NCBI RefSeq assembly: GCF_030345095.1 | Contig: NZ_CP128360.1 | Location: 3,658,001 to 3,722,000 of the forward strand | DNA length: 64,000 bases | Direction of reading: 5' to 3' | Source of the DNA: Solwaraspora sp. WMMA2056 | GTDB taxonomy: Bacteria > Actinomycetota > Actinomycetes > Mycobacteriales > Micromonosporaceae | Part shown: positions 48,526 through 64,000 of the stretch, in pieces | How positions within the stretch are numbered: position 1 is the stretch's first letter | Layout: each line of letters starts with the position of its first letter | Notes under the pieces: model-generated | The model's database searches: none | What the model saw: the letters and a program-made list of their open reading frames with translations, nothing else | Told to the model about the DNA's origin: nothing | Translations under genes and position numbers: made by a program

Positions 48526-49698
48526 TCAGCCGGTGCCGGTGCCGGCACCAGCCGCCCGCCGGGTCGACGGGGCGCCCCGCCCCGGCCGGGCCGCCGGTCG
48601 GCGGGCCCCCGGCAGGGGCACCTCGGCCCGCGCCTCGACGGCCGGGCCGGTGCTGGCCCGTACGGTCAGCCGTGGGTCGAGCAGGGTGGCGGCGGGGACG
48701 GACTCGCCGTCGACCTTGCGCATCAGCAGGGCCACCGCCTGCCGACCGACCTCCTCGGCCGGCACCAGCACCGAGGTCAGCGCCGGACCGGAGCGCTCGG
48801 CCACCTCGTCTGGGCAGATCGCCACCACCGAGATGTCGTCCGGCACCTGCCGGCCCAACGTCGGCAACGCGGCCAGCACGTGGCCCACCGCCGCCTCGTT
48901 GTGCACCACCAGCGCGGTCAGCCCGGGGTTGCGGTGCAGCAGCCCGGCCAGCTCCCGGCGGACGGCGTCGTAGTTCTCCTCGCAGGGCTGGGCGACGGCG
49001 TCGACGCCGTACCGGGCGGCGCTCTCGGTGACCCCGGCCCGGGTCCGGTGGGCGAACCCGGTCTCCCGTTCGTAGACCACCGACGGGGCGCCGAGCAGGG
49101 CGATCCGCCGGTGACCGAGGGCGGCCAGGTGCCCGACGCACACCTCACCGGCCCGATAGAAGTCCAGGTCGACGCAGGTCAGACCCGACGCCTCGGCCGG
49201 GAAACCGATCAGCACGCTGGGCCGTTCCAGCTCGCGCAGCAACGGCACCCGGGGGTCGCGCATCTCGACGTCCATCACCACGATGCCGTCGACCATCGCG
49301 CTGGCCGCGATCCGCCGTAGGCCGGCCGGGCCCTCGTCGGCGGTGACCAGCAGTACGTCGTGGTCGAACTGCCGGGCGGTGGTGACCACGCTGGTGGCGA
49401 ACTGCATCAGGACCGGTAGGTGCATGCCGGAGCGCAACGGCAGCACCAGGGCGATCACGTTGGCCCGTCGGCTGGCGAGCGCGCGGGCCCCGGCATGCGG
49501 GTGGTAGCCGAGCGCGTGGATGCTGGCCAGCACCCGTTCCCGGGTCGACGCCGAGATCGCCCGCTTGCCGCTGAGCACATAGGACACGGTGCTGACCGCG
49601 ACCCCGGCGTGCCGGGCGACGTCGGCGATCGTCACCATGTCGGGCCGCTTGCCGGTGCCGGCCGGTCCACCGTCCGGTGGTAGTGACCGCGTGGACAC
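48526..49698 (-). CDS. LacI-family repressor of the GH3 operon
   Basis: 390 residues. The GTG at 49698 overlaps the GH3 stop by one base (TAGTG) with GGGGGAG upstream; ATG 49638 is an alternative. HTH: VTIADVARHAGVAVSTVSYV plus LSGKRAISASTRERV. The hinge helix ARALASRRANVIALVLPL joins a periplasmic-binding-protein-like sugar domain (VDGIVVMDVEMRDPRVPLL, ALVVHNEAAVGHVLAAL). The last 30 residues are a Pro/Arg-rich tail, longer than usual. It is co-transcribed with the GH3 gene, and two palindromic operators in front of that gene fit autoregulation of this pair. Confidence 0.9.
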   Translation of the reverse strand: MSTRSLPPDGGPAGTGKRPDMVTIADVARHAGVAVSTVSYVLSGKRAISASTRERVLASIHALGYHPHAGARALASRRANVIALVLPLRSGMHLPVLMQFATSVVTTARQFDHDVLLVTADEGPAGLRRIAASAMVDGIVVMDVEMRDPRVPLLRELERPSVLIGFPAEASGLTCVDLDFYRAGEVCVGHLAALGHRRIALLGAPSVVYERETGFAHRTRAGVTESAARYGVDAVAQPCEENYDAVRRELAGLLHRNPGLTALVVHNEAAVGHVLAALPTLGRQVPDDISVVAICPDEVAERSGPALTSVLVPAEEVGRQAVALLMRKVDGESVPAATLLDPRLTVRASTGPAVEARAEVPLPGARRPAARPGRGAPSTRRAAGAGTGTG

Positions 49699-52646
49699 TA
49701 AGCTCCCCCTTCGTCCCCGGCGCGGCCGCTGGGCGGGGCACCGACGAAGTTCAGGTAGCTCACCGTAGCGCCTGCCGTACTGAACAGCAGATACAGATCT
49801 CGAACTCCGGACACACCGTGCAGCGGCGTGTCGACGTCCGCCCAGTCGTGCCGGCCTCCCGTCACGGGTACCCGCAGCGTACCGGCGATCGGACCGGTCA
49901 GCGGGTCGTCCAGCCGCAACGTCACGGTCGAGGCGTCGACGGCCCGGCCGGTCGTGGCGTCGTCGGTGCCGCCGCGACAGAGCACGTTGCGCTGGGCCAC
50001 CCGGGCCGTCACCGTGGTCGGGCCAGGTCCGAAGTCGACATCGGTGAAGGCGAGCCAGCCGCCGTCCTGTGTCGCGCTGACCGCCACCCGGCCGTCGACC
50101 TGGTCGGTCGGTGCCACCGCGGCGTAGTCGTCGTTGTCCACCGCCCACAGCGGGCCGGCGAGCGGGTCGCGGGGGCCGATCCGCTCGCCCCGTACGGTCA
50201 GCGTCGCGGTGGCCATCAGGTCGGTGCAGGACCGGCCGACCGCCACCGTGTGCCGGGCCGACTCCACCACCCGTCGCCCCTGGGTGACGTCCCAGGTCGC
50301 CAGGTCGGCGGTGGCCAGCCGGAACCGTACCCGCTCCCGCTGGCCCGGCTCCAGCCGGACCTTGCGGAAGGCCCGCAGCTGGCGCAGCGGCTGCTTGACC
50401 CGCGAGGTGCGCTGCCGGGTGTAGAGCTGGACGACCTCGGTGCCGGTACGCCCGCCGGTGTTGGTGACGGTGACGGTCACCTCGACCTCCTCGGCGGGCC
50501 CCGCCTGCGCGGCGGACAGTCGCAGGTCGTCGTAGGCGAACGTGGTGTAGCTCAGGCCGTGGCCGAACGGGTACAGCGGTTCGCCCCGGAAGTACAGGTA
50601 GGTCGCGTCGGCGGCGATGATGTCGTAGTCGAGCAGGTCGGGCAGGTCCGCCGTGGCGCGGTACCAGGTCTGGGTGAGCCGGCCACCGGGATCGGCGTCG
50701 CCGCAGAGCACCTCGGCCAGCCCGGTGCCGTGCTCCTGCCCGCCGTGGGCCGACCAGACGATCGCCGCGACGTGCTGGTCGGCCCAGTCGACGGCGTACG
50801 GGTAGCTGCTGGTCAGCACCAGCACGGTCTGCGCGTTCGCGGCGTGCACCGCGCGCAGCAGTGCCGCCTGGGCGGTGGGCAGCGCCAGGTCGGTGCGGTC
50901 CTCGGTCTCCCGCCCGCAGACCATCGGATGGTTGCCCAGCACCACCACCGCCACGTCGCACTCGCGGGCCAGCGTCGCGGCCTCCCGGGCACCGTCGCTG
51001 ATCAGCTCGACGGTGAACGCCGCCGCCGCGTCGGCACTGGTGGCGTCGGCCCGCAGCAACCCGTCCGGGTCGATCATCACGTACCGGTCGCGGGCCAGGT
51101 GATGCAGCGCCGTACGGCCGTCGTCGGTGCGGACCAGCCGGAACGTCTCGTTGACCACCCAGCCGCCGGGGCCGGTACGGTCGTCGACCAGGACCCCGTC
51201 GTCGTCTGCGGCCAGATAGCGGCCGTTGGCGACGCCGCGCAGCGCGATCACCCCGTCGCCCCAGTTGAACACGTCGAACCAGCTGTCCGGGACCGCCTCC
51301 GGCGCGGTGGCGGTGACCGGTCCCCCGTCGGCCCGGCCGCTGGCGCGCAGGTACGTGGTGCCGGCACCGACCCGCAGCGCGATCCGGTCGACCCCTTCGT
51401 GGTGGAGTACGGTCGCGCCGGCCAGCCGGGTGGCGAGCCCGGCGCGAGGCGTCACCGCGTACGGCAGCGTTCCCGAGTACCAGTCGGTCTGCACGGTGTC
51501 CGCCAGCGGCCCGATCACGGCGACCCGCCGGATCCGGTCGGCGTCGAGCGGCAGCAGCGGCTGCCCGGCCGGACCGACCGGGGCGTTGCGCAGCAGCACG
51601 ACCGACTCGCGGACCGCGATCCGGGCGAACTCCTGGTGGGCCGGACAGTTGATCATGTCGGTGCCGGCGGCCGTGTACGGGTTCGCCTCCGCCGGGTCCA
51701 GGTCGCCGAGCCGGATCCGTACGGCGAGGACGCGCCGCGCGGCCCGGTCGATGTCGGCCTCGGTCAGCAGACCCTGCGCCAGCGCGGCGCTGATCCGCCC
51801 GATCGTCGGCGCGGCGTCGGTGTCGTCCTCGGTGAAACTGTCGATGCCGGCCCGCAGGGCGGCGGCGTAGCCGGCGACGTGGTCGGGGCGGAACCCCTGG
51901 ACGCCGGCGATGTTGGTGGCGGCGCCGGCGTCGCCGACCACCAGCACGTCGTCGGCGCTCCAGCGGCGCAGCTCGCCGTCGATCAGTGGGCTCAGGTGCG
52001 CCGGAGCGCCGTTGACCAGGTTGTACGAGGCCATGACGGCCACTGCCGCGCCGGCGGCCAGCGGTGCCCGGAAGGCGGGCAGTTCGTACTCGTGCAGCAC
52101 CCGGGGCGGCAGGTTGCTGCTGGTGGTGGCCCGGTCGGTCTCGTTGTTGTAGCCGAGGAAGTGCTTCAGGGTGGGCGCGGTCCGCAGGTAGCGGGGGTGG
52201 TCGCCGCGCAACCCCCGGGCGTACGCGGTGGCCAGTTCGCCGGTGAGCCAGGGGTCCTCGGCGTACCCTTCCTCGTTGCGCCCCCAGCGCGGGTCGCGCA
52301 GCGGGTTGACCACCGGGGCCCACACGTTCAGGCCGATACCGACGGGATCCTTGTGGTGCAGCGCGCGGACCTCCTCACCGACCGCTTCGCCGATCTCCCG
52401 CAGCAGGTCCGGATCCCAGGTCGCGCCGAGCCCGATCGCCTGCGGGAACACCGTCGCGGGGCCGAGCCAGGCCACGCCGTGCAGGGCCTCGGTGCCGGTC
52501 CGGAAGGCGGGCAGGCCGAGTCGGGGCACCGCCGCCTGGTGCTGGTGCAGCAGGGCGATCTTCTCGTCGAGGGTGAGCTGGCCGAGCAGATCGGTGACCC
52601 GGGCGGTGACCGGCAGTTCGGGGTCGCGGAACATGCTGTCGCTCAT
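49698..52646 (-). CDS. GH3 beta-glucosidase with fascin-like insertion and C-terminal CBM6-like domain
   Basis: 982 residues from ATG 52646, no signal peptide, so intracellular. The catalytic domain has LTLDEKIALLHQHQAAVPRL, WGRNEEGYAEDPWL, KHFLGYNN and the nucleophile Asp239 in VVGDAGAATN. An insertion at about 410-560 (DVFNWGDGVIALRGVANGRY and so on) has the repeating pattern of a fascin-type beta-trefoil, like an accessory sugar-binding module placed where other GH3 enzymes carry PA14. The fibronectin-III-like domain follows (LYPFGHGLSYTTF, VTVTNTGGRTGTEVVQLY), then a CBM6-like C-terminus (LAFTDVDFGPGPTTVTARV, VRDLYLLFS). Probable substrates are beta-glucosides such as cello- or xyloglucan-derived oligosaccharides. 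Confidence 0.92.
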   Translation of the reverse strand: MSDSMFRDPELPVTARVTDLLGQLTLDEKIALLHQHQAAVPRLGLPAFRTGTEALHGVAWLGPATVFPQAIGLGATWDPDLLREIGEAVGEEVRALHHKDPVGIGLNVWAPVVNPLRDPRWGRNEEGYAEDPWLTGELATAYARGLRGDHPRYLRTAPTLKHFLGYNNETDRATTSSNLPPRVLHEYELPAFRAPLAAGAAVAVMASYNLVNGAPAHLSPLIDGELRRWSADDVLVVGDAGAATNIAGVQGFRPDHVAGYAAALRAGIDSFTEDDTDAAPTIGRISAALAQGLLTEADIDRAARRVLAVRIRLGDLDPAEANPYTAAGTDMINCPAHQEFARIAVRESVVLLRNAPVGPAGQPLLPLDADRIRRVAVIGPLADTVQTDWYSGTLPYAVTPRAGLATRLAGATVLHHEGVDRIALRVGAGTTYLRASGRADGGPVTATAPEAVPDSWFDVFNWGDGVIALRGVANGRYLAADDDGVLVDDRTGPGGWVVNETFRLVRTDDGRTALHHLARDRYVMIDPDGLLRADATSADAAAAFTVELISDGAREAATLARECDVAVVVLGNHPMVCGRETEDRTDLALPTAQAALLRAVHAANAQTVLVLTSSYPYAVDWADQHVAAIVWSAHGGQEHGTGLAEVLCGDADPGGRLTQTWYRATADLPDLLDYDIIAADATYLYFRGEPLYPFGHGLSYTTFAYDDLRLSAAQAGPAEEVEVTVTVTNTGGRTGTEVVQLYTRQRTSRVKQPLRQLRAFRKVRLEPGQRERVRFRLATADLATWDVTQGRRVVESARHTVAVGRSCTDLMATATLTVRGERIGPRDPLAGPLWAVDNDDYAAVAPTDQVDGRVAVSATQDGGWLAFTDVDFGPGPTTVTARVAQRNVLCRGGTDDATTGRAVDASTVTLRLDDPLTGPIAGTLRVPVTGGRHDWADVDTPLHGVSGVRDLYLLFSTAGATVSYLNFVGAPPSGRAGDEGGA

Positions 52647-52702
52647 GGTGGAACGCCTTCCGGGATCGGCGAGGGCGCCCGCGTCGGGACGGAAGTGGTC
52701 CG

Positions 52703-52782: not shown

Positions 52783-52796
52783 TCGAAGCGCTTCGA
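52783..52796. promoter_or_regulatory. LacI-type operator 2 upstream of GH3
   Basis: TCGAAGCGCTTCGA is a perfect 14-bp palindrome with a central CG, the classical LacI-family operator form, 137 bp upstream of the GH3 start. The adjacent LacI gene in the same operon is the natural ligand. Confidence 0.72.
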
Positions 52797-53042: not shown

Positions 53043-54272
53043 TCAGCCGGCGGACTTGCCCACCGGGGTCGGCATCCGGCCGTTGTCGATAGCCGCGATG
53101 GCCCGCGCCGCGCCACCGACGGCCGCCGCGCCACCGGCCAGCGTGGACGCCGCGAGCACGGTGCCCCCCGCCTGCGGCGCCACGGTACGCGCGGTGAGCT
53201 GCTCCTGCGCGGCCGGCAACAGCCACGGCGTGAGCGGCACGAAGTACCCACCGAGGAGTACCACCTCGGGGTTGATCAGGTTCGCCAGGATGGACACGCC
53301 GGTGCCGAGATGCCGGCCGATCTCGGCCAGCGCGGCCAGGGCCGGTGCCTGGCCGGCGCGGGCCGCCGCCCGGACCCGCTCGATCTCCGGCGCGAAGTCG
53401 GTGACCGGACCGTCGATCTCGGCGTCGGGCAGCACCCGACGGATCAGGGCGGGAATGCCGGCGAGCGCCTCCAGGCAGCCGTTCGCCCCGCAGCGGCAGG
53501 GCGGCCCGGTCGGGTCGAGCTGCAGGTGGCCGATCTCGCCGGTGAAGCCCCGGCCGCCGTGCAGCAGCCGGCCGTCGACCACCAGCCCGGCGCCGATACC
53601 GGCCCCGCCGGTCAGGTGCACCAGGTTCGCGGTGCCGGCGTACGGTCCGTGCCGGTGCTCGGCCAACGCGGCGAGCTGGGCGTCGTTGTCCACGATCACC
53701 TCGTACGTCGGCCCGCGCAGCGCCCGCACGAGGTCGGCGCGCAGGTCCACGTCGCGCCAGCCGAGCTCGGGGGAGAGGCAGACCCGGCCGTCGTGATCGA
53801 CCAGACCGGGCACCCCGACGGTCAGCCCGAGCACCTGCCGGCCCTGCCGGGTGACCCGGGCGACAGCCCGGCCGGCCAGCGCGGCCACCGTGCTGGCCGC
53901 CCGACCCGGGGTGGCGGCCAGACCGGTGAAGGCCCGCCGCCAGGAGAGCACCTCGCCGCCGGCCAGGTCGAGTGCCACGGCGGTGAGGTGGTCGGCGTTG
54001 ATCTCGATGCCGATCGCGGCGTACGCGTCGCCGTCGATCACCAGCATGGTCGCCGGCCGGCCGATCCGGTGCTCGGTCAGCCCGGTCTCGCGAACCAGCC
54101 GCCGGTCGATCAGGTCGGCCACCAGGCTGGAGACGGTGGCCTTGTTGAGCCCGGTGGCGCCGGCGATGTCCGCCCGGGAGCAGGGCGCGTGGGTGCGGAC
54201 GTAGCGCAGCACGACGGCGAGGTTGGTGGCGCGTACGTCAGTGAGGTCCGCCGGCTGCGGGCCGCTCTGCAT
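53043..54272 (-). CDS. ROK-family transcriptional repressor
   Basis: 409 residues from ATG 54272. The N-terminal winged helix is NLAVVLRYVRTHAPCSRADI plus AGATGLNKATVSSLVADLID. The ROK sugar-kinase-like core has TVGVPGLVDHDG, DNDAQLAALAEHRHG, the glycine-rich GGAGIGAGLVVDGRL and the zinc motif GEIGHLQLDPTGPPCRCGANGCLE (first half GEIGHLQLD, then CRCGANGCLE). Such proteins repress sugar-uptake genes and release DNA on binding the sugar. It is divergent from an ABC importer operon, with a candidate operator in the 335-bp space between them, and a matching site occurs 7.8 kb downstream in front of GH31/GH42. Confidence 0.92.
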   Translation of the reverse strand: MQSGPQPADLTDVRATNLAVVLRYVRTHAPCSRADIAGATGLNKATVSSLVADLIDRRLVRETGLTEHRIGRPATMLVIDGDAYAAIGIEINADHLTAVALDLAGGEVLSWRRAFTGLAATPGRAASTVAALAGRAVARVTRQGRQVLGLTVGVPGLVDHDGRVCLSPELGWRDVDLRADLVRALRGPTYEVIVDNDAQLAALAEHRHGPYAGTANLVHLTGGAGIGAGLVVDGRLLHGGRGFTGEIGHLQLDPTGPPCRCGANGCLEALAGIPALIRRVLPDAEIDGPVTDFAPEIERVRAAARAGQAPALAALAEIGRHLGTGVSILANLINPEVVLLGGYFVPLTPWLLPAAQEQLTARTVAPQAGGTVLAASTLAGGAAAVGGAARAIAAIDNGRMPTPVGKSAG

Positions 54273-54485
54273 GGTGATCACGTTACGCCCCGGCCGCCAC
54301 GGCAAGGCCGCTGCCCGTGCGGACGCGCCGAGGTGCCGCACGTCGGGCCGGGTGCCGGCGAGCGATCCGCCGGCCGCCGGGTCGGCGCCGAGGTGCCGGA
54401 CGCGGGCCGGCGTCGGGTGCGCCGCCGTCGCTGCTTCCCGTCATGTCGGTCTCCCTTGTGGCACCTGTCACCGTCGGCTACTTTG

Positions 54486-54504
54486 TTTAGTCACCAGACG
54501 AACT
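54486..54504. promoter_or_regulatory. ROK operator A (importer/repressor intergenic)
   Basis: TTTAGTCACCAGACGAACT, part of a longer imperfect inverted repeat (TTAGT ... ACTAA). It shares 14 of 19 bases with the site at 62253-62271. It lies about 104 bp upstream of the binding-protein start and 214 bp upstream of the ROK gene start. Confidence 0.6.
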
Positions 54505-54607
54505 AACTCTAGCGTGCGAATCGCACCCACACATCCCCCCACTCCGAGCGGAATCGTCCCTGTTTCTCGCGGGCGACCGTTCGCCCGATCACCGAAGGGA
54601 GCGCGCC

Positions 54608-56290
54608 GTGGATCCATCCCTCGCGGGCGCGGCCACCAATCGACGTCGATTCCTGGGCCTGCTCGGCCTGGGTGCCACCGCCGTCGCCGGCGGCGGATTG
54701 TTCACCGGTTGCAGCCGGCCGGCCGGCACCCAGGGCACGGCCACCAACGTCGACTCGATCAGCGCCGTACTGCCCAAGTACCAGCCGGTCGACCTGATCA
54801 CCCCCGACATCGCCGGGGTCCGGCCGATCGCCGACGGCTACCTGACGTACCCCACGAACCTGGTCAAGGCGGTCACCGAGACGCCCGCCAGCAGCGGCCA
54901 GCAGCTCACCGCGATGACCCCCTGGTGGGGCCCGACCCCGCCCGGCCTGGACCGCAACGCGTACCTGCAGGCCGTCAACGCCCAACTCGGCGTGCCGATC
55001 GACTTCAGCGTCCAGGACGGCAACACGTACGCCGACAAACTCAGCGCCGCGCTCGGCGCCCGCGACGTACCGGACCTGCTCTGCGCCCCCAACTGGGAGA
55101 TCGACAAGATCCCGCGCTTCTCCGACGCGGTGAGCGCGCTGTTCGAGGACCTCACCGAGCACCTCGCCGGGGACGCCGCGCTGGCGTACCCGCACCTGGC
55201 GAGCTTCCCCACCGGAGCCTGGCAGTACGCGGTCTGGGGCGGCCGGCTCGCGGCGGTGCCGTGGCCCACCGACGGCCCGTTCCCGTACGCACTGTTCTAC
55301 CGCAAGGACCTCACCGACGCCGCCGGCGTGCAGGCCCCGAAAAGCATCGAGGAACTGTACGAGTTCGGCAAGGCGATGACCGACCCTGCGAAGGGCGTCT
55401 GGGCGTTCGGCTCGGTGTTCAACATGGTGCAGATGTTCTACGGCGTACCCGGCGCGCAGGGCGGCTGGCGGCGTACCGACGGCGGTGGCCTGGAGTTCAA
55501 GTACGAGACCGAGGAGTACCGCGAGGCGCTGGAGTTCACCACCCGGCTGTTCGCCGAGGGCCTGGTGCACCCGGACATCGTCGAGAGCCGTGGCTCCGCC
55601 GACGCCAAGCAGCTGTTCAACAGCGGCCGGATGATCTGCTACGAGGACGGTGTCGGCGCCTGGCGCGGCATGTACTCCGAGCAGCGGCAGATCACCCCCA
55701 CGTTCGACATGCGGCCGGTGCCGATCTTCCACGCCGACGGCCAGAGCGACCCGGTCGCCTGGGGCGAGGAGAAGCCGGTCTTCTACACGTTCGTCAAGAA
55801 GGGCCTGGGCAAGGAACGGGTCGAGGAGATCCTGCGGGTGCTGAACTGGTGCGCCGCCCCGTTCGGCACCGAGGAGTACCACCTGCGCCAGTACGGCGTC
55901 GCCGGCCAGCACCACACCACCGGCGCCGACGGCAGCCCGGAGCTGACCGAGCTGGGCCGCCAGGAGATCGCCGACCAGTACACCTTCCTGGTCGGACGGT
56001 ACCCGGCGATCGTGCAGACCGCCGACGTCCCTGGCTTCGTCGAGGCGCTGCTCGCGTACTCCAACGAGACGGTCAAGTGGCTCGAACCCAACCAGTGGGC
56101 GGGGATCAAGCTGGAGCTGCCGGCCAACTACTCCCGCGTCGGCCAGCCGACCGAGGACAAGATCCTCGACGTACTGCGGGGCCGGCGGCCGACCAGCGAC
56201 CTCGAGCAGATCACCCAGGAGTGGCGCAGCGGCGGCGGTGACGAGGGGCGCGACTTCTTCCGCAAGGCGCTCGAAGACAATAATCGTTGA
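54608..56290 (+). CDS. ABC sugar importer, extracellular solute-binding lipoprotein
   Basis: 560 residues from GTG with GAAGGGAG upstream. A Tat-type lipoprotein signal (NRRRFLGLLGLGATAVAGGG, lipobox LFTGC) anchors it to the membrane. The rest is a family 1 binding protein of the LplA size class (longer than typical 420-aa maltose-type proteins): YADKLSAALGARDVPDLLCA, GPFPYALFYRKDLTDAAGV, LFNSGRMICYEDGVGAWRGM. The two permeases follow 1.38 kb downstream, separated only by an inverted tnpB element, so this was one operon. No ATPase is encoded here; such importers use a shared MsiK-type ATPase. The extreme end is at the transposon junction. Confidence 0.9.
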   Translation: MDPSLAGAATNRRRFLGLLGLGATAVAGGGLFTGCSRPAGTQGTATNVDSISAVLPKYQPVDLITPDIAGVRPIADGYLTYPTNLVKAVTETPASSGQQLTAMTPWWGPTPPGLDRNAYLQAVNAQLGVPIDFSVQDGNTYADKLSAALGARDVPDLLCAPNWEIDKIPRFSDAVSALFEDLTEHLAGDAALAYPHLASFPTGAWQYAVWGGRLAAVPWPTDGPFPYALFYRKDLTDAAGVQAPKSIEELYEFGKAMTDPAKGVWAFGSVFNMVQMFYGVPGAQGGWRRTDGGGLEFKYETEEYREALEFTTRLFAEGLVHPDIVESRGSADAKQLFNSGRMICYEDGVGAWRGMYSEQRQITPTFDMRPVPIFHADGQSDPVAWGEEKPVFYTFVKKGLGKERVEEILRVLNWCAAPFGTEEYHLRQYGVAGQHHTTGADGSPELTELGRQEIADQYTFLVGRYPAIVQTADVPGFVEALLAYSNETVKWLEPNQWAGIKLELPANYSRVGQPTEDKILDVLRGRRPTSDLEQITQEWRSGGGDEGRDFFRKALEDNNR

Positions 56291-56440
56291 CAATCCTCCC
56301 CGCCCTAACCGACGGGGATTCCCTGGGTCGCCCCAGGGGGTTCCTGCTTCGCCGACGACCGCCCCGTCCGAGAGGAGGACTCCCGGTGAGGTCTTACACC
56401 GCCTCCACAGGCAATCACGGAGAGCCCCTCCGCGAGGATG
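56291..56440 (-). ncRNA. probable omega (re)RNA at the tnpB 3' end
   Basis: In TnpB elements the guide RNA overlaps the 3' end of tnpB and runs to the right end of the element. Two stems fit: CCCTGGG/CCCAGGG (56321-56338, 7 bp, 4-base loop) and CCCCG/CGGGG (56298-56317). The guide would then be copied from the flanking host DNA. Its 5' limit is not defined. Confidence 0.4.
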
Positions 56441-57516
56441 TTGCGGGCCGCGTTGACGTCCCGGTCGTGGGTCTGCCCGCATCGGCAGGTCCACGACCGG
56501 ACGGTCAACGGCATCCGCTCGGCCAGTTCGCCGCAGGCGGAGCACAGCCGGGTCGACGGGAACCAGCGGTCGACTACCACCAGGTCCCGGCCGTACCAGT
56601 CGGCCTTGTAGGCCAGCATGGTGCGGAACTGCCGCCAGGCCGCGTCGGAGATGGCGCGGGCCAGACGGTGATTGGCCATCATGTTACGGACGGTCAGGTC
56701 CTCGATCACGATCGTTTGGGTGTCACGAACGAGCCGAGTGGTGAGTTTGTGCAGGTGGTCGCGGCGGCGGTCGGCGATCCGGGCATGAATCCGGGCCACC
56801 TTCAGCCGTGCTCTGGCCCGGTTCGCCGAGCCTTTGACCTTACGGGCGAGGTTTCGCTGGGCGCGGGCCAGCCGATCGCGGTCGCGGCGTTCGTGCCTCG
56901 GGTTGGCGACCTTCTCCCCTGTGGAGAGAGTGAACAGGCTGTCGAGGCCGGCGTCGACCCCGACCGCGTCGGAGGAAGCCGGGGCCGGTTCGATCCGGTC
57001 GTCGCAGAGCAGGGAGACGAACCAGCGGCCCGCCGGGTCCTGCGACACCGTCACCGTCGACGGCGACACACCAGCGGGCAGGGGCCGGGACCACACAATG
57101 TCCAACGGTGCGGTCATCTTCGCCAGGGTCAGCCGGCCGTCCCGCCAGCGGAACGCGCTGGCGGTGTACTCCGCCGACCGCCGCGACCGCTTCCTCGACT
57201 TGAACGTCGGGTACCGGGCCCGTTTCGCCCAGAAGTTGGTGAACGCGGTCTGCAGGTGCCGCAGCGCCTGCTGCAACGGCACCGACGACACCTCGGCGAG
57301 GAACGCGAACTCGTCGGTCTTCTTCCACGACGTGAGCATCGCCGAGGTGTCGTGGTAGGTGACCCGTTCCCGGCGTTGAGTCCACGCCTGCGTGCGGGCG
57401 GCCAGGGCCTTGTTGTAGACCAGCCGGACACAGCCGAACGTCCGGGCGAGCTCGGTGGCCTGCTCCGGCGTGGGGTAGAAGCGGTACCTGAACGCCCGCT
57501 TCACGGTCCTGGACAC
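56305..57516 (-). CDS. tnpB: TnpB RNA-guided nuclease (IS605 family)
   Basis: 403 residues from GTG 57516. The N-terminus is KRAFRYRFYPTPEQATELAR; the RuvC triad is Asp188 (VGVDAGLDSL), Glu272 (VIEDLTVRNM) and Asp353 (HDRDVNAARNILAEG). The zinc ribbon is complete: CSACG and CRCG between Glu272 and Asp353. All catalytic residues are in place, so the nuclease could be active. TnpB cuts the empty donor site guided by its reRNA and so helps the element persist. It is embedded in the ABC importer operon in reverse direction and starts only 156 bp from the permease gene. Confidence 0.92.
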   Translation of the reverse strand: MSRTVKRAFRYRFYPTPEQATELARTFGCVRLVYNKALAARTQAWTQRRERVTYHDTSAMLTSWKKTDEFAFLAEVSSVPLQQALRHLQTAFTNFWAKRARYPTFKSRKRSRRSAEYTASAFRWRDGRLTLAKMTAPLDIVWSRPLPAGVSPSTVTVSQDPAGRWFVSLLCDDRIEPAPASSDAVGVDAGLDSLFTLSTGEKVANPRHERRDRDRLARAQRNLARKVKGSANRARARLKVARIHARIADRRRDHLHKLTTRLVRDTQTIVIEDLTVRNMMANHRLARAISDAAWRQFRTMLAYKADWYGRDLVVVDRWFPSTRLCSACGELAERMPLTVRSWTCRCGQTHDRDVNAARNILAEGLSVIACGGGVRPHRESSSRTGRSSAKQEPPGATQGIPVG

Positions 57517-57671
57517 AGTCCACAGTCTAGCGATTCGATCGGCGAGGCTTGGGGCGGCGGGTGGATGGACGCCGATCCGCCCCGGCAGCGGACCGGCGAT
57601 CCCGGTCACGCTGCGCGGGAGTTCCGTTTCCTGCCCGGCCTGAAGACCGGAGTATCCACGGAAGGAATCCG

Positions 57672-58730
57672 ATGACCTCGGTCGAGACGTCCGTGACCGC
57701 CGGCTCCGGTGACGACCGGAGCCGGCGGTCGCCGGACCAGCCCACCCCGGCCGGCGACCGTCGCTCCCGCCGTACCCCGAACAGCCGCCGCACCCGCCGA
57801 CGGACGGTGCCGCTGCGGGCCCGGCTGCGCCGCGACTGGCCGCTGCTGGCGATGGCGGCCCCGGCCGCGCTGCTGCTCCTGGTCTTCCACTACCTGCCGA
57901 CCCTCGGCAACGTCATCGCCTTCCAGGACTACAACCCCTGGGTCGGCGACAACGCCTTCGAGGCGTTCGTCTACAGCGAGTGGATCGGCTTCGGCAACTT
58001 CGAGACCCTGTTCCGGGACCCGGCGTTCTGGGACGCGGTGCGCAACACGCTGACCATCACCGCGTTCCAGTTGGTCTTCTTCTTCCCACTGCCGATCCTG
58101 CTGGCGATCCTGCTGCACAGCATCCTGTCGCGCCGCATCCGCGGCATCGTCCAGAGCGTCGTCTACCTGCCGCACTTCTTCAGCTGGGTGCTGGTGGTCA
58201 CCTTCTTCATGCAGATGCTCGGCGGTGCCGGTCTGCTCGCCCAGCGGATGCGCGAGGCGGGCCTGCAGCCACTCAACATCATGAGCAACCCGGACACCTT
58301 CATCGTCCTGGTCACCGCCGAGTCGGTGTGGAAGGACGTCGGCTGGGGCGCGATCATCTTCCTCGCGGCGCTGAGCGCCATCGACCAGAACCTGTACGAG
58401 GCGGCGGCCGCCGACGGGGCCGGCCGCTGGCGTCGGCTGTGGCACATCACCCTGCCCGGCCTGCGGCCGGTCATCGTCCTGCTGCTGATCCTGCGGCTCG
58501 GTGACGCGCTCAGCGTCGGCTTCGAGCAGTTCATCCTGCAACGTGAGGCGGTCGGCCGGCAGGCCGCCGAGGTGCTCGACACCTACGTCTACTACCAGGC
58601 GATCATCCCGCAGCAGTGGGGGATGGGCGCGGCCGCCGGCCTGTTCAAGGGCGTCATCGGTCTGGTCCTGATCATCGCCGCGAACAAGTTCGCGCACCGC
58701 CTCGGCGAGCAGGGAGTGTATTCCAGGTGA
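57672..58730 (+). CDS. ABC sugar importer, permease 1 (LplB-type)
   Basis: 352 residues from ATG with GGAAGGA upstream. An Arg/Pro-rich cytoplasmic N-terminus of about 65 residues leads to six membrane helices. The EAA loop for ATPase contact is LYEAAAADGAGRWRRLWHITLPGL (second half AADGAGRWRRLWHITLPGL). HFFSWVLVVTFFMQML is typical of the LplB/polysaccharide-import branch. The stop overlaps the GTG of permease 2 (GTGA). Since the tnpB element sits upstream, transcription from the binding-protein promoter must cross it, or a local promoter must exist. Confidence 0.92.
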   Translation: MTSVETSVTAGSGDDRSRRSPDQPTPAGDRRSRRTPNSRRTRRRTVPLRARLRRDWPLLAMAAPAALLLLVFHYLPTLGNVIAFQDYNPWVGDNAFEAFVYSEWIGFGNFETLFRDPAFWDAVRNTLTITAFQLVFFFPLPILLAILLHSILSRRIRGIVQSVVYLPHFFSWVLVVTFFMQMLGGAGLLAQRMREAGLQPLNIMSNPDTFIVLVTAESVWKDVGWGAIIFLAALSAIDQNLYEAAAADGAGRWRRLWHITLPGLRPVIVLLLILRLGDALSVGFEQFILQREAVGRQAAEVLDTYVYYQAIIPQQWGMGAAAGLFKGVIGLVLIIAANKFAHRLGEQGVYSR

Positions 58731-59710
58731 GCATCGCCAACCAGTTGATCCGCGGCCGTCGGCCGGGACCCGACCCGGCCGGTACGCCGCCGGGGCGCCG
58801 CCGCCGGGGTGCCCCGGCCCGCCCGGTCTGGGAGGAACCGCCGAGCGTCGTCGGCCAGGGCGTCAAGGCTGTCGTGCTGACCGCCATGGTGCTGGCGGTG
58901 CTCTTTCCGATGTGGTCGGTCCTGGTGACCAGTCTCGCCTCCCGCGACACCATCAACGCCGCCGGCGGCATGGTGGTGGTGCCGCGCGAGATCGACCTGT
59001 CGGCGTACGTGAACATCTTCTCCGGCGGCCAGATCAGCCGGGCGGTCTGGGTCAGCACCCTGGTCACCGTCGTCGGCACGACCTTCAGCCTGGTGCTGAC
59101 CGTGCTGGCGGCGTACGGGATGTCCCGCCGTGACTCCCTCGCGCACCGCCCGCTGCTGTTCCTGTTCCTCCTGACCTTCCTCATCTATCCCGGCATGGTG
59201 CCGAGTTACCTGGTGGTGACCGGTCTGGGGCTCAAGAACAGCCTCTGGGCGCTGATCCTGCCGACCGCCATCAGCGTGTTCAACCTGGTCGTCATCCGGG
59301 CGTTCTTCATGAACGTGCCGGGAGAGCTGATCGACGCGGCCCGCATCGACGGCGCCGGCGAGTTCCGCATCCTCTGGCAGATCATGCTGCCGCTGTCGAG
59401 GGCGGTGATCGCGGTGGTCGGCCTGTTCTACGCCGTCGGCTACTGGAACGCCTACTTCAACGCGGTGCTCTACATCGACGACAACGACAAGTGGCCGATC
59501 CAGCGGGTGCTGCAGAGCTACATCCTGGCCGGGCAGTCGCCCTCGGTGACCGGTGCGCCGGTGAACATCCCCGGGGTCAGCGCCTACCCGCCAACCCTGG
59601 CGGTCAAGATGGCGGTGGTGGTGATCACCGTACTGCCGGCGATCATCATCTTCCCGTTCGTGCAGCGGCACTTCACCAAGGGTGTCATCACCGGTGCCGT
59701 CAAAGGCTGA
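58727..59710 (+). CDS. ABC sugar importer, permease 2 (YtcP-type)
   Basis: 327 residues from GTG overlapping the previous stop. It has a Pro/Arg-rich N-terminus, six membrane helices and the EAA loop ELIDAARIDGAGEFRILWQI with MLPLSRAVIA. The segment YAVGYWNAYFNAVLYIDD is characteristic of the second permease of LplB/YtcP importers, which take up complex oligosaccharides. Together with permease 1 and the binding protein it makes a three-component importer. The operon ends here at a REP-like palindrome. Confidence 0.92.
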   Translation: MSIANQLIRGRRPGPDPAGTPPGRRRRGAPARPVWEEPPSVVGQGVKAVVLTAMVLAVLFPMWSVLVTSLASRDTINAAGGMVVVPREIDLSAYVNIFSGGQISRAVWVSTLVTVVGTTFSLVLTVLAAYGMSRRDSLAHRPLLFLFLLTFLIYPGMVPSYLVVTGLGLKNSLWALILPTAISVFNLVVIRAFFMNVPGELIDAARIDGAGEFRILWQIMLPLSRAVIAVVGLFYAVGYWNAYFNAVLYIDDNDKWPIQRVLQSYILAGQSPSVTGAPVNIPGVSAYPPTLAVKMAVVVITVLPAIIIFPFVQRHFTKGVITGAVKG

Positions 59711-59732
59711 CCGTCACCCCGCCCACCCCCTT

Positions 59733-59812
59733 CATGATCCCGACGATCTTGCAGTTATCGATGGACAACTCGGACAAATCCTCGCGATGAGCGCAAGATC
59801 GTCGGGATCATG
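59733..59812. repeat. REP-like palindrome, probable bidirectional terminator
   Basis: Two perfect 20-bp arms, CATGATCCCGACGATCTTGC (59733-59752) and its reverse complement (59793-59812), surround a 40-base centre. A partial copy of the right arm (GTCGGGATCATGGGGGT) is repeated at 59822-59838. It lies between the convergent permease and GH31 genes. The form is that of a short interspersed palindromic element and it can also end transcripts. Confidence 0.75.
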
Positions 59813-59855
59813 GGGGTTGGCGTCGGGATCATGGGGGTCGGGGTCGGCGTCGGTC

Positions 59856-62162
59856 TCAGTCGGTGACGCCGTCGAGCACGATGGTGGTGGGGGCGTCGGT
59901 GCCGGCGACCGCGACGACCTCCACCCGGCGTACCGCCAACGGTCCGTCCACCGTGACCCGCAGCGTGTCGCCGTCGCGGACCGCCCGCACCGTCGTGTCG
60001 CCGTCGACGTCGCTGACCACCGTCTCGGCGTCGACGCCGCCCCAGCTGACCAGCGTCACGTCGGTGAACGGGCCGTCTCCGACCACGTCACCGACCTCGG
60101 TGGTGGCGATCAGCGCGCCCCGGCGTACGTACAGCGGAATCCGCTCCCGGGGCACCCGCACCGCCAGGTACCGCCCACCGGAGTGGGTCTCACCGGTCCA
60201 GTAGTCGACCCACTCGCCGGCCGGCAGGTACACCTGCCGCTGGCCGTCCGGGTTGATCATCGGGGCGACCAGCAGGTCGGTGCCGAGCCGGTACTCCAAC
60301 TCGGCCCCCCACGCGGCCGGGTCGGCCGGCGTGTCGACCAGCAGGGCCCGCAGCATCGGCGCGCCGGTGCGCGACGCCGCGACCGCCGCCGAGTAGAGGT
60401 AGGGCATCAACCGGTACCGCAGCCGGATCGCCTCGACCGCCTCGTGCGCGGCGTCGTCGGGGAAGTCCCACGGCAGCCGGCTGGTGGTGCCGTGGAAGCG
60501 CACCAGCGGCGACAGCGCACCGAACTGCGCCCACCGTACGTACAGGTCCGGGGTCGGGGTGCCGTGGAAGCCGCCGGCGTCGTGGCTCCAGAACGGTACG
60601 CCGGACAACCCGTGCGACAACCCGCCGCGCAGCGTGCTGGCCATCCCCGGGTACGTGGCGTTGACGTCGCCGCTCCACTGCGCCGGGTGCCGTTGCCCGC
60701 CGAGGAACGACGAACGCGCCCAGACCATGCCGTGCCCGGCGACCTCCCGGGTGACCGCCGCGACCGCGTCGTTGAACAGCAGGGTGTAGACGTTGTGCAG
60801 CTCGACGCCGGTCATCCCGTTGTGCGCCAACGCGTCGGCCGGCACCCCTTCGGCGAAGTCGGTCTTGAACACCATCGCGCCCTGGCGCAGCAGGTCACGC
60901 AGCAGCCCGGTGAACCACTCGGTGGCCGCCGGGTTGGTGAAGTCCACGATCCCGCAGACCGGGTAGGAGCCGTGCCAGACGTCGGCGATGTAGGTCGACC
61001 CGTCGGCGCGGCGCAGGAAGTAGCCGGCCGCGTCGGCCTGCGCGAAGACCGGGCTGCCGGTCATGATGTACGGGTTCATCCAGAGGCTGACCTTGAACCC
61101 CTGCTCGGCGAGGGTGGCGAGCATGCCGGCCGGGTCCGGGAAGTTCGTCGCGTCCCAGGCCAGGTCGGACCAGGCGCCGTCGGCCTGCCAGTAGCAGTCC
61201 AGGTGCAGCACGTCGCAGGGGATGCCGTCGGCGCGGATCCGACGGGCCCGCTCCAGGACCAGCTCCTGGGTGTCCACGTAGAACCCGGAGGAGATCCAGG
61301 TGCCGAACGCCCACTTGGGTGGCAGCACCGGTCGGCCGGTCAGCCCGTCGTAGCGGTCCAGGATCTGCGCGGGGGTGGGTCCGGCGATCACGTAGTAGTC
61401 GATCAGGTCGTCCGGCACCAGGATCTGTACGCAGCTGTGCGTCGACGCGCAGATGTCGAACTCGACCGGCATCCCGCTGTCGACCAGCACGCCGTAGCCC
61501 CGGTCGGACAGGTAGAGCGGAATGTTCTTGTGCGAGCGGTCCGACTCCGCGCCGAAGGCGTCGAAGTTCCACATCAGCGCCCGCTGGCCGCGCTTGTCCA
61601 GCCGGGTGAACTTCTCGCCGAGTCCGACGAAGCGTTCGTCGCCGGGGGCGTCGAAGCATTCGTGGTACGCCGCGACGGCCCCGTCCACCAGGGACCGCCC
61701 GAACGGCAGGGTACGCAACCGGCCGCTGATGTCGCGCTCGCCCCGGTTCTGGTTCAGCAGCACCCGGCCCTGCGGGTCGAGGAACCGCAGGTGCCAGGGG
61801 TCGAGCCGGATCTCGGCGACGACCGCGCCGGCGTCGACGCGGACCATGTCGTCGCTGGCGGTGATCGTCGCCGGGTGCGGTCGGGCGTCGACCAGTGGGA
61901 TCGCCCGGGCGGAGCGGCTGCGGGCGTCGGGGGTGGCGCTGAGCCGGACCCGGACCACCCCGTCGCCGGCGGCGCTGACGGAGACCGTCACCGAGTCGCC
62001 GTCGGCGGTGGCGCCCTTGAAGGTGACCCCGCAGCCGTCGGTGCCGACCACCTCGGCGCGTACCAGCGCGGACAGGCCCTGCTCGCCGGGTGCGCGGACC
62101 GGCAGGTCGGGCGGGTCGGCGACGAAGGTCTCGTGGGGGACCAGAGGTGGACGGTACGGCAT
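59856..62162 (-). CDS. GH31 alpha-xylosidase (YicI-like)
   Basis: 768 residues from ATG 62162 with AAGGAGA upstream; no signal peptide, so cytosolic. The catalytic nucleophile is Asp435 in VFKTDFAEGVP, with the KTDFxE motif typical of alpha-xylosidases, and the acid/base is Asp499 in QWSGDVNATY. Other conserved blocks are PPKWAFGTWISSGFYVD, DVLHLDCYWQ, GVPFWSHDAGGF and RLMPYLYSAA. It would remove alpha-1,6-xylose from the non-reducing end of xyloglucan oligosaccharides, although isoprimeverose or other alpha-glycosides cannot be excluded. Divergent from GH42, with ROK operator B between. Confidence 0.92.
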   Translation of the reverse strand: MPYRPPLVPHETFVADPPDLPVRAPGEQGLSALVRAEVVGTDGCGVTFKGATADGDSVTVSVSAAGDGVVRVRLSATPDARSRSARAIPLVDARPHPATITASDDMVRVDAGAVVAEIRLDPWHLRFLDPQGRVLLNQNRGERDISGRLRTLPFGRSLVDGAVAAYHECFDAPGDERFVGLGEKFTRLDKRGQRALMWNFDAFGAESDRSHKNIPLYLSDRGYGVLVDSGMPVEFDICASTHSCVQILVPDDLIDYYVIAGPTPAQILDRYDGLTGRPVLPPKWAFGTWISSGFYVDTQELVLERARRIRADGIPCDVLHLDCYWQADGAWSDLAWDATNFPDPAGMLATLAEQGFKVSLWMNPYIMTGSPVFAQADAAGYFLRRADGSTYIADVWHGSYPVCGIVDFTNPAATEWFTGLLRDLLRQGAMVFKTDFAEGVPADALAHNGMTGVELHNVYTLLFNDAVAAVTREVAGHGMVWARSSFLGGQRHPAQWSGDVNATYPGMASTLRGGLSHGLSGVPFWSHDAGGFHGTPTPDLYVRWAQFGALSPLVRFHGTTSRLPWDFPDDAAHEAVEAIRLRYRLMPYLYSAAVAASRTGAPMLRALLVDTPADPAAWGAELEYRLGTDLLVAPMINPDGQRQVYLPAGEWVDYWTGETHSGGRYLAVRVPRERIPLYVRRGALIATTEVGDVVGDGPFTDVTLVSWGGVDAETVVSDVDGDTTVRAVRDGDTLRVTVDGPLAVRRVEVVAVAGTDAPTTIVLDGVTD

Positions 62163-62252
62163 GCGGTCTCCTTTTCCGGCACCCGAGGGCGCTGCGAGCG
62201 CGCGACGCTCCCTGATGGAGCGGCCGGCAGCGGCGGCGGCTAAATTAGTTTC

Positions 62253-62271
62253 TTTGGTAACCCAACAAACT
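62253..62271. promoter_or_regulatory. ROK operator B (GH31/GH42 intergenic)
   Basis: TTTGGTAACCCAACAAACT, within a longer inverted repeat AGTTTcTTtGG ... CCaACaAACT (62247-62271). It shares 14 of 19 bases with operator A at 54486-54504 and lies 91 bp upstream of the GH31 start and 23 bp upstream of the GH42 start. Confidence 0.65.
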
Positions 62272-62293
62272 GTCAACGCCGGAGGGAGCGCCG

Positions 62294-64000
62294 ATGCGCT
62301 GGCCGAAAGGACTCGACGGACTCTGCTACGGCGGGGACTACAACCCGGAGCAGTGGCCGGAGTCCACCTGGGTCGAGGACGTGTCGCTGATGCGCAAGGC
62401 CCAGGTCAACCTGGTGACCGTCGGCGTGTTCGCCTGGTCCCGGCTGGAGCCACAGCCTGGCCGGTACGTCGTGGACTGGCTGGACCGGGTACTGGACCTG
62501 CTGCACGACGGCGGCGTCAAGGTCGTGCTGGCCACCCCCACCGCCGCGCCGCCACCCTGGTTCTCCCTGGCCCACCCCGACGCGCTGCCGGTCACCGCCG
62601 AGGGCGTACGGCTGCACCACGGCAGCCGCGACACCTACTGCGCGGCGGCCCCGGCGTACCGGGACGCGGCCCGCGCCGTCGCGACGATGCTCGCCGAGCG
62701 CTACCGCGACCACCCGGCGTTGGCGATGTGGCACGTGCACAACGAGTACGGCACCATCTGCCACTGCCCGCACGCCGCCGCGGCGTTCCGGCGCTGGCTG
62801 CGGGAGCGCTACGGCGACCTCGACGGCCTCAACCAGGCGTGGACCGGCTCGTTCTGGAGCCAGAGCTACTCCGACTGGGCGCAGGTCGACGTACCCCGCG
62901 CCACCCAGTACCTGGCCAACCCCACCCAGGTGCTGGACTTCCGACGGTTCTGGTCCGACGAACTGCTCGCCGCCTACGTCGAGCAGCGTGACGTGCTGCG
63001 CCGGGCCACCCCGGACGTGCCGGTGACCACCAACTACGTCCTGGCCGACTGGGTGCCGGTGGACCACGCCCGATGGTCGAGCGAGGTCGACCTGGTCGCC
63101 ATCGACCACTACCCGGGCGAGACCGACGGGCGCGCCGAGGAGCAGACCGCGTTCGCCGCCGACCTGGCCCGGTCCTGGGCCGGCCGCCGGCCGTGGCTGC
63201 TGATGGAGAGCGCCCCGAACCTGATCTACCGGTACGCCGAGGGCGTCTACGCCGGCAAGGAACCGGACCGGATGCTGCGGCACAGTCTCGCCCACGTCGC
63301 CCGGGGTTCCCGGGGCGCGATGTTCTTCCAGTGGCGGGCCCCGCGCGGCGGCGCGGAGGTGTTCCACTCGGCGATGGTCCCGCACGCCGGTGCCGACAGC
63401 CGGACCTTCCAGGCGACGACCCGCCTCGGCGAACTGCTGACCGGGCTGGCCGAGACCGACGCCGGCACCGTGGCGGCCCACGCCGCGATCAGCTGGGACG
63501 CCGCCAGCGGGTGGGCACTGCAGCATCCCGGCATGCCGTCGCGGCACATCTCGTACGCCGACGAGGTGGCCGCCGCGTACCGGGCCCTGTGGCGGTGCGG
63601 CGTCACCACCGACGTGGTCTGCCCGACGGCGGCCACCTTCGATCTGACCGGCTACCGGATGCTGGTGCTGCCCGCCCTGTACCTGATGAGCGACGCCGTC
63701 GCCGATGCCGTCGCCGCGTGGGTGCACGACGGTGGACATCTGGTGGTGAGCTACCTGTCCGGGGTGGCCGATCCGGCGGCCCAGGTGCGCCTCGGCGGCT
63801 ACCCCGGGGCGCTGCGTGACCTGCTCGGCGTACGGGCCGAACAGTTCCTGCCGTTGGAGCCTGCGGCGACGGTACGGCTGACCGGCGGACGGACCGGTCG
63901 GCTCTGGCAGGAACGGCTCACCGCGCCCGACGCCGACCCGGTGCTGCGCTACGCCGCCGGGGTGCTGGCCGGCCAGCCGGCGGTCACCCGCCGCCGGGTC
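62294..64000 (+). CDS. GH42 beta-galactosidase (3' end outside window)
   Basis: ATG 62294 with GGAGGGAG upstream; the frame is open to the end of the window (569 codons), lacking only the last part of the trimer-interface and beta-sandwich domains. The TIM barrel has GLCYGGDYNPEQWPESTW, LVTVGVFAWSRLEPQPGRY, the acid/base Glu151 in WHVHNEYGT and the nucleophile Glu305 in WLLMESAPN. Zinc cysteines TICHCPH follow the acid/base. It removes terminal beta-galactose; no signal peptide is present, so it works inside the cell on imported oligosaccharides. Divergent from the GH31 gene. Confidence 0.92.
   Translation, partial: MRWPKGLDGLCYGGDYNPEQWPESTWVEDVSLMRKAQVNLVTVGVFAWSRLEPQPGRYVVDWLDRVLDLLHDGGVKVVLATPTAAPPPWFSLAHPDALPVTAEGVRLHHGSRDTYCAAAPAYRDAARAVATMLAERYRDHPALAMWHVHNEYGTICHCPHAAAAFRRWLRERYGDLDGLNQAWTGSFWSQSYSDWAQVDVPRATQYLANPTQVLDFRRFWSDELLAAYVEQRDVLRRATPDVPVTTNYVLADWVPVDHARWSSEVDLVAIDHYPGETDGRAEEQTAFAADLARSWAGRRPWLLMESAPNLIYRYAEGVYAGKEPDRMLRHSLAHVARGSRGAMFFQWRAPRGGAEVFHSAMVPHAGADSRTFQATTRLGELLTGLAETDAGTVAAHAAISWDAASGWALQHPGMPSRHISYADEVAAAYRALWRCGVTTDVVCPTAATFDLTGYRMLVLPALYLMSDAVADAVAAWVHDGGHLVVSYLSGVADPAAQVRLGGYPGALRDLLGVRAEQFLPLEPAATVRLTGGRTGRLWQERLTAPDADPVLRYAAGVLAGQPAVTRRRV

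Follow-up and report, generated by a model that had tools for sequence, protein, structure and literature searches.

Layout of the locus

Does a single repressor govern both the importer genes and the glycosidase genes of one locus in Solwaraspora sp. WMMA2056, through operators placed 8 kb apart? The question comes from an earlier note on the 64,000-nucleotide stretch analyzed here, which as a whole is called the window and lies in a genome assembled as a single contig of 7,010,427 bases (7.01 Mb). That note had pointed to a 19-bp motif occurring at two places and had named the ROK-family gene beside the first of them as the binder. The genes of the locus follow one another in the order LacI-family regulator, GH3 enzyme, and ROK-family regulator (all on the minus strand), solute-binding protein (SBP) of an importer (plus), TnpB element (minus), two ABC permeases (plus), GH31 (minus), and GH42 (plus).

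The ROK gene (positions 53043 to 54272, minus strand) likely starts at the ATG at 54272, with the reading frame open up to 54341, and its product combines an N-terminal HTH with a C-terminal ROK domain (ROK, 1e-43; MarR_2, 1.3e-6), the arrangement by which it is placed among ROK regulators. It is divergent from the SBP gene (54608 to 56290, plus strand; SBP_bac_1, 1.4e-19), and operator site 1 (TACTTTGTTTAGTCACCAGACGAACTAAC; 54479 to 54507, plus strand; profile E value of 3.4e-7) lies in the region between them. The first ABC permease (57672 to 58730, plus strand, start read from the sequence; BPD_transp_1, 1.6e-18) and the second (58703 to 59710, plus strand, start approximate; BPD_transp_1, 1.7e-9) precede the GH31 gene (59856 to 62159, minus strand), whose YicI-like product is a probable alpha-xylosidase (best PDB match, YicI, 2.1e-135). 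Operator site 2 (TAGTTTCTTTGGTAACCCAACAAACTGTC; 62246 to 62274, plus strand; profile E value of 2.2e-5) occupies the divergent region between GH31 and GH42, the latter a member of the beta-galactosidase family (62294 to 64000, plus strand) that extends past the end of the window; 19 bp separate the end of site 2 from the GH42 ATG. The placement of both sites between divergent genes, ROK and SBP in one case and GH31 and GH42 in the other, was therefore described correctly in the earlier note. On the far side of the ROK gene lie the GH3 enzyme with its CBM6 domain (49698 to 52649, minus strand), which is without a ROK operator, and the adjoining LacI-family regulator (48526 to 49638, minus strand, start estimated; domain scan from 49521, without its HTH).

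A promoter scan detected no consensus sigma-70 promoter at site 1 or site 2, and we therefore gave up the idea that an operator lies on a particular promoter. On the minus strand, one terminator-like stem was seen at 62294 to 62273, against a mean of 0.1 in shuffles.

Comparison of the two sites

The 19-mers at 54486 to 54504 (TTTAGTCACCAGACGAACT) and 62253 to 62271 (TTTGGTAACCCAACAAACT) agree at 14 of 19 positions, a figure that a recount bore out. As an argument, this match did not hold up: when the two intergenic stretches were dinucleotide-shuffled to give 300 pairs, 208 of the pairs reached it, which puts it within chance. The best 19-bp match observed was 15, equaled by 49 of the 300 shuffle pairs. 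Extended in the same register, the sites agree at 20 of 29 positions (reached in 24 of 300 pairs), and when both orientations are allowed, the best match over 29 bp is 21, a value reached in 5 of 300 pairs.

Both sites had also been assigned to inverted repeats. For site 2 this stood, as it is self-complementary at 20 of 25 positions, a palindrome beyond chance (4 of 300 shuffles); for site 1 taken by itself within the window it did not, since its 16 of 25 self-complementary positions were reached in 250 of 300 shuffles. The proposed operator length of 19 bp gave way to an imperfect palindrome of 25 to 29 bp. The ideal operator reads AGTTTGTTTGG-N3-CCAAACAAACT, and the four half-sites of the window match AGTTTGTTTGG at 9, 9, 10, and 10 of 11 bases; both sites would therefore be degenerate copies of this palindrome. 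One symmetrised matrix scored them at 36.0 and 35.3, with 11.7 as the next best score in the window. Because the 19-bp match is within chance, the case rests on conservation, and it is on the strength of conservation across relatives that both sites are judged to be real.

Conservation and uniqueness of the sites

From each of 20 genomes of the family, we took a 20-kb stretch surrounding the ROK orthologue for comparison. Site 1 was found before the importer, in register, in all 20 relatives (21 of 21 loci with the window), and site 2, also in register, in 19 of 20. The fixed bases of site 2 were kept at 14 of 20 positions in L052 to L054 and at 17 to 20 in the other relatives that have the site. 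The one exception for site 2, L043, has no GH31 gene in its stretch and carries GH42 directly after the permeases.

The same 7.01-Mb genome was then scanned for further copies. With as many as 3 mismatches allowed, a pattern made of the 20 shared bases matched sites 1 and 2 only, and its reversed control matched nowhere in this genome. A degenerate 30-base pattern returned the same two sites alone, and a search for the ideal palindrome that tolerated 3 mismatches or fewer returned site 2 only. With a 32-position profile built from 24 distinct sites, a search at an E value of ≤10 gave only site 1, site 2, and the reverse strand of site 2 (in a first look, 150 of 816 candidates were scored). The earlier note had held that a motif common at unrelated genes would speak against its proposal; the genome scan turned up none at such genes, and only two sites in 7.01 Mb.

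Genes that carry the operator

To describe the distribution of the operator, about 330 bp 5' of each gene was scored with the symmetrised half-site matrix at a cutoff of ≥20, and a site between divergent genes was counted for both. In the 21 matrix-source loci, the cutoff was reached at SBP (21/21), ROK (21/21), GH31 (17/17), and GH42 (19/20), and not once at GH3, LacI, PermB, or PermC (each 0/21). A held-out set comprised 34 further stretches, a nonrandom selection made by ROK, GH31, or profile matches. In this set, sites scoring ≥20 preceded SBP in 21 of 22, GH31 in 19 of 20, GH42 in 16 of 19, and ROK in 19 of 27 cases, and the controls had none (GH3, 0/26; LacI, 0/18; PermB, 0/22; PermC, 0/22). 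Of five matrices with shuffled positions, the best attained a score of 20 at one ROK gene and one SBP gene among the source loci and at no held-out gene.

The held-out misses were SBP in L063 (18.9), GH31 in L091, GH42 in L066, L067, and L091, and ROK in eight of the 27 loci (L059, L061, L063, L072, L076, L082, L085, and L086). In L091 (genome G017), GH31 and GH42 stand after the permeases, read in one direction with them, and have no operators of their own; they may share the importer promoter there, as if joined to the importer operon. A GH42 gene with its own operator near its start was observed in L047, L050, L052, L053, L074, L075, L087, and L089. These operators mostly begin with TACTTTGG, TAATTTGG, or TAGTTTGG, and that of L047 starts 17 bases past a TTGACA.

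The motif stays with the importer, GH31, and GH42 genes when they lie away from ROK. In G107, the importer is on another contig with an operator scoring 36.1, and the GH31/GH42 operator at the ROK locus scores 32.2; the contigs measure 522 and 673 kb, and both places are >200 kb from the contig ends. The same split is seen in G130, where the contigs are smaller (32.3 and 36.0). In G085, GH31 is on another contig (25.7) and GH42 is about 120 kb from ROK (27.6), and in G123, GH31 and its operator are on another contig, close to its end. G107, G130, G085, and G138 were fetched after a profile match at these places, so that the distant genes are not a random sample, several having been fetched for a site already found; the GH31 sites of G117 (26.0) and G123 (24.0) come from genomes chosen without a prior profile match.

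Co-occurrence of the operator with the ROK gene

We next surveyed 150 Micromonosporaceae genomes, defining a ROK orthologue as a match of at least 440 bits. An orthologue was present in 70 of the 150 genomes (in one, G091, it was joined from two pieces). Leaving out the 21 profile-source genomes gave 49 held-out genomes with the orthologue and 80 without. A site at an E value of ≤0.01 was found in 34 of the 49, whereas only 1 of the 80 had one; the genomes are related and the counts are not independent trials, and a Fisher value for this co-occurrence therefore overstates its significance. The 1 genome among the 80, G035, has a 51%-identical ROK protein with the site beside its gene.

Fifteen orthologue genomes were missed at an E value of ≤0.01. 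Thirteen were fetched, and 12 of these had a site scoring ≥20; the thirteenth, G062 (L076), has a ROK gene without importer or enzyme neighbors and a best site score of 15.6. Among those missed at this threshold, G033 and G122 gave profile matches at E values of 0.05 and 0.1. Relaxing the threshold to ≤0.1 added four genomes without a 440-bit orthologue. Two of them, G069 and G085, have ROK proteins about 50% identical and sites at GH31, in G085 at GH42 as well. In the third, G138 (98% complete; L079, contig C26, near 3829), the GH31 operator is kept and no close ROK was found; this site is either an orphan operator or a sign of an assembly gap. The fourth, G036, has a weak site (E value of 0.0475; score of 17.6), and the query genes were absent from the 18 kb fetched. 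Viewed from the enzyme side, GH31 was matched at an E value of ≤1e-150 in 71 genomes, and in 69 of these a ROK match scored 350 bits or more (lists compared by eye); the two exceptions were G094 (87% complete) and G138.

The ROK protein as candidate binder

The best PDB matches of the window's ROK protein include ROK regulators, e.g., Mlc, over most of their length. ROK regulators carry a cysteine zinc motif and a GEIGH-type sugar-binding motif, and the window's protein has CRCGANGCLEAL and GFTGEIGHLQLD at these two; the cysteines are missing in the distant relative L078. The DNA-reading helix GLNKATVSSLV is invariant among 14 aligned sequences, the window's included, the others being 51 to 91% identical to it.

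Two other sources of a binder were considered within the same genome. Nine other ROK-like loci exist, and the helix differs in the six of the nine in which the alignment covers it; no site above 9.4 occurs within 1.5 kb of any of the nine, and these genes were rejected as binders for want of sites nearby. The LacI-type box TCGAAGCGCTTCGA (52783 to 52796), 5' of GH3 and distinct from the ROK operator, has no second exact copy in the genome; at one mismatch it occurs at four places, versus two for a reversed control, and similar boxes stand before GH3 in several relatives. As its box at GH3 is unlike the operator, the LacI regulator was likewise rejected as the binder. GH3, with a LacI-type box and no ROK site, therefore falls outside the ROK regulon, which points to a division of labor between ROK and LacI inside one conserved locus.

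The proposal that one repressor links import and breakdown genes over 8 kb gains support from these comparisons, in that distant genes keep the motif, sites occur nearly only in genomes with ROK, and other ROK loci are without sites. What computation has shown is a motif that relatives conserve, that is confined to these genes, and that goes together with ROK, and in view of this the two sites are very probably the operators of one local ROK regulon, in which the importer and GH31/GH42 would be repressed until a sugar binds. The ROK protein would bind, probably as a dimer, the palindrome between its own gene and the importer, and would bind again between GH31 and GH42, keeping all of these genes off; a sugar from the imported oligosaccharide, the putative effector, would then bind the ROK domain and release the protein. 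The importer and two exo-enzymes would thus be switched together, and GH3 would answer to the adjacent LacI regulator.

Two operator classes and alternative explanations

The sites at the importer and at the enzymes differ in a consistent way. We compared distinct sites scoring ≥20, 65 from importers and 53 from enzymes, picked by the matrix from both classes; one L090 site is in both lists, as it lies in a region common to GH31 and SBP. The outer dyad TT...C.AA is invariant in the importer list and departed from once in the enzyme list. GTC-N4-GAC is present in 27 of 65 importer sites versus 0 of 53 enzyme sites, and importer sites tend toward the continuation CTAACT, enzyme sites often having CTGTCA. 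The class letters are exchanged in some loci: GH31 of L067 has an importer-type site, and the importers of L074, L075, and L087 to L089 have GG/CC-type sites. We read the two classes as one specificity with what appears to be class-specific tuning. Since site 1 is not palindromic alone and the sites differ at conserved positions, they may differ in affinity, or a second factor may be involved.

These class differences, conserved as they are, together with the G138 GH31 site that has no close ROK, are what would be expected if two regulators were at work, with ROK reading the importer site and a ROK paralogue or the adjacent LacI reading the GH31/GH42 site. We regard this as unlikely, because a single symmetrised matrix scores both window sites far above the next best, letters swap between the classes in some genera, the nine other ROK-like loci lack sites, and the LacI neighbor has its own, unlike box at GH3.

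An activating ROK protein at one or both sites would agree with the failure to find a consensus promoter at either. Site 2, however, lies immediately before the GH42 start, and where sugar ROK regulators such as CsnR and XylR of C. bescii have their sites in 5' regions, they are read as repressors; the sites of C. bescii XylR, located there or overlying promoter elements, are read as repressor sites (PMC8579813). Activation is accordingly improbable in our estimation, and we infer sugar-released repression by analogy with CsnR, XylR, and RokB. That two AT-rich patches of a GC-rich genome resemble each other by chance, which the 14/19 match alone would allow, is scarcely credible for a motif conserved at the same genes in many relatives, limited to them, and unique in the genome.

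Predicted substrate and comparison with known systems

If the two sites are operators of one ROK regulon, the importer is tied to the GH31 and GH42 enzymes, which narrows the range of its substrate. GH31 scored 596.8 bits against the NCBIfam alpha-xylosidase model, 9 bits under the cutoff of 606; GH42 matches beta-galactosidases, and GH3 matches beta-xylosidases and beta-glucosidases with no cutoff reached. Ruminiclostridium-type xyloglucan use offers the closest parallel: R. cellulolyticum takes up xyloglucan oligosaccharides by way of an ABC importer, and Gal42A, Xyl31A, and Glu3A then digest them (PMC8576529). The parts of such a pathway, an ABC importer with GH42, GH31, and GH3, are all in the window, although the stretches of some relatives are without GH31 or without GH42. 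Because the gene set is the same as in the R. cellulolyticum pathway, xyloglucan oligosaccharides are the likeliest substrate, a reading by analogy that we favor with some reserve. In trimming them, GH42 would remove galactose, GH31 alpha-xylose, and GH3 glucose. The likeness to R. cellulolyticum extends to importer, beta-galactosidase, alpha-xylosidase, and beta-glucosidase, with GH42/GH31/GH3 taken from the enzyme names rather than from sequences; unlike the present locus, with its ROK operators and a LacI-type box at GH3, that pathway is described as positively controlled by the two-component system XygS/XygR (PMC8576529). The C. bescii axuABC/xylS locus likewise joins a CUT1 importer to a cytoplasmic alpha-xylosidase and differs in its predicted AraC-family control (PMC8579813).

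Among ROK regulons, those of Firmicutes XylR resemble this one in their ROK protein with an HTH and their inverted-repeat operators, which are 25 bp long in one group of clostridia, in sites 5' of xylR in many species, and in the co-regulation of the alpha-xylosidase gene xylS and transporters; they differ in centering on xylA/xylB and xylose transport, where here the sites are at importer/ROK and GH31/GH42 (PMC2873477). The name XylR was rejected for the present protein because no site was found in the genome besides those at importer/ROK and GH31/GH42. RokB and CsnR of Streptomyces are, like the present protein, actinobacterial ROK regulators, with sites of 28 to 30 bp (PMC4856308, PMC3048496). 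RokB binds AGTTTGTTCAACACACGTGCGAACAAAG in vitro, and its site at novH begins with the same AGTTTGTT as the operator here, but its targets are novobiocin genes and possibly amino-acid metabolism (PMC4856308); the target of CsnR is a chitosanase, and its site sequence differs (PMC3048496). A description of this ROK regulon was not found in open-licence papers, and the present data give it a testable operator, regulator, and gene set.

Genes inserted between permease and GH31 or between GH31 and GH42 in relatives were also inspected, and the 10 frames scanned gave no clue to the substrate. Matches among the inserted frames were to a STAND/NACHT-like ATPase (below the cutoff), MFS, SelA, TPR, and DUF222/HNH.

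The operator beyond the family

To look beyond the family, named genomes were searched with the ROK alignment, and the best 80 of 573 matching stretches were taken. Of these best 80, 47 lie in genera that we take to be Streptosporangiaceae (Nonomuraea, Microbispora, Sphaerisporangium, and others). In these 47 of the best 80 of 573 loci, sites scoring ≥20 were found at ROK (42/47) and SBP (33/33) and at none of GH3 (0/59), LacI (0/43), PermB (0/39), and PermC (0/38). Three GH31 genes were scored there, at 17.4, 17.4, and 19.9, and no GH42 gene was among those scored. The importer operator therefore crosses families, and the GH31 scores of 17.4 to 19.9 do not establish an enzyme operator in Streptosporangiaceae. 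The other 33 of the best 80 of 573 loci, which partly overlap the genomes of the family survey, reached ≥20 at ROK (25/33), SBP (21/25), GH31 (17/19), and GH42 (17/22).

A more elaborate scheme can be put forward tentatively, and we think it rather doubtful as a whole: one ROK repressor might read two conserved operator classes, with a common outer dyad and a differing center and flank, so that the importer and the enzymes are switched at different inducer levels, and GH3 might be gated separately by LacI. The use of xyloglucan oligosaccharides in Micromonosporaceae would then be under an ordered, two-key control, of which Streptosporangiaceae would share at least the importer operator.

The TnpB element

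In the window, the first gene of the importer operon, SBP, is separated from the permeases by a TnpB element of the IS200/IS605 type, a member of an RNA-guided nuclease family (about 56291 to 57671, minus strand). At the closely related locus L035 (G034), there is no insert, and the SBP stop and the permease start overlap (ATGA). Locus L040 (G105) has a shortened TnpB remnant, with both junctions as in the window.
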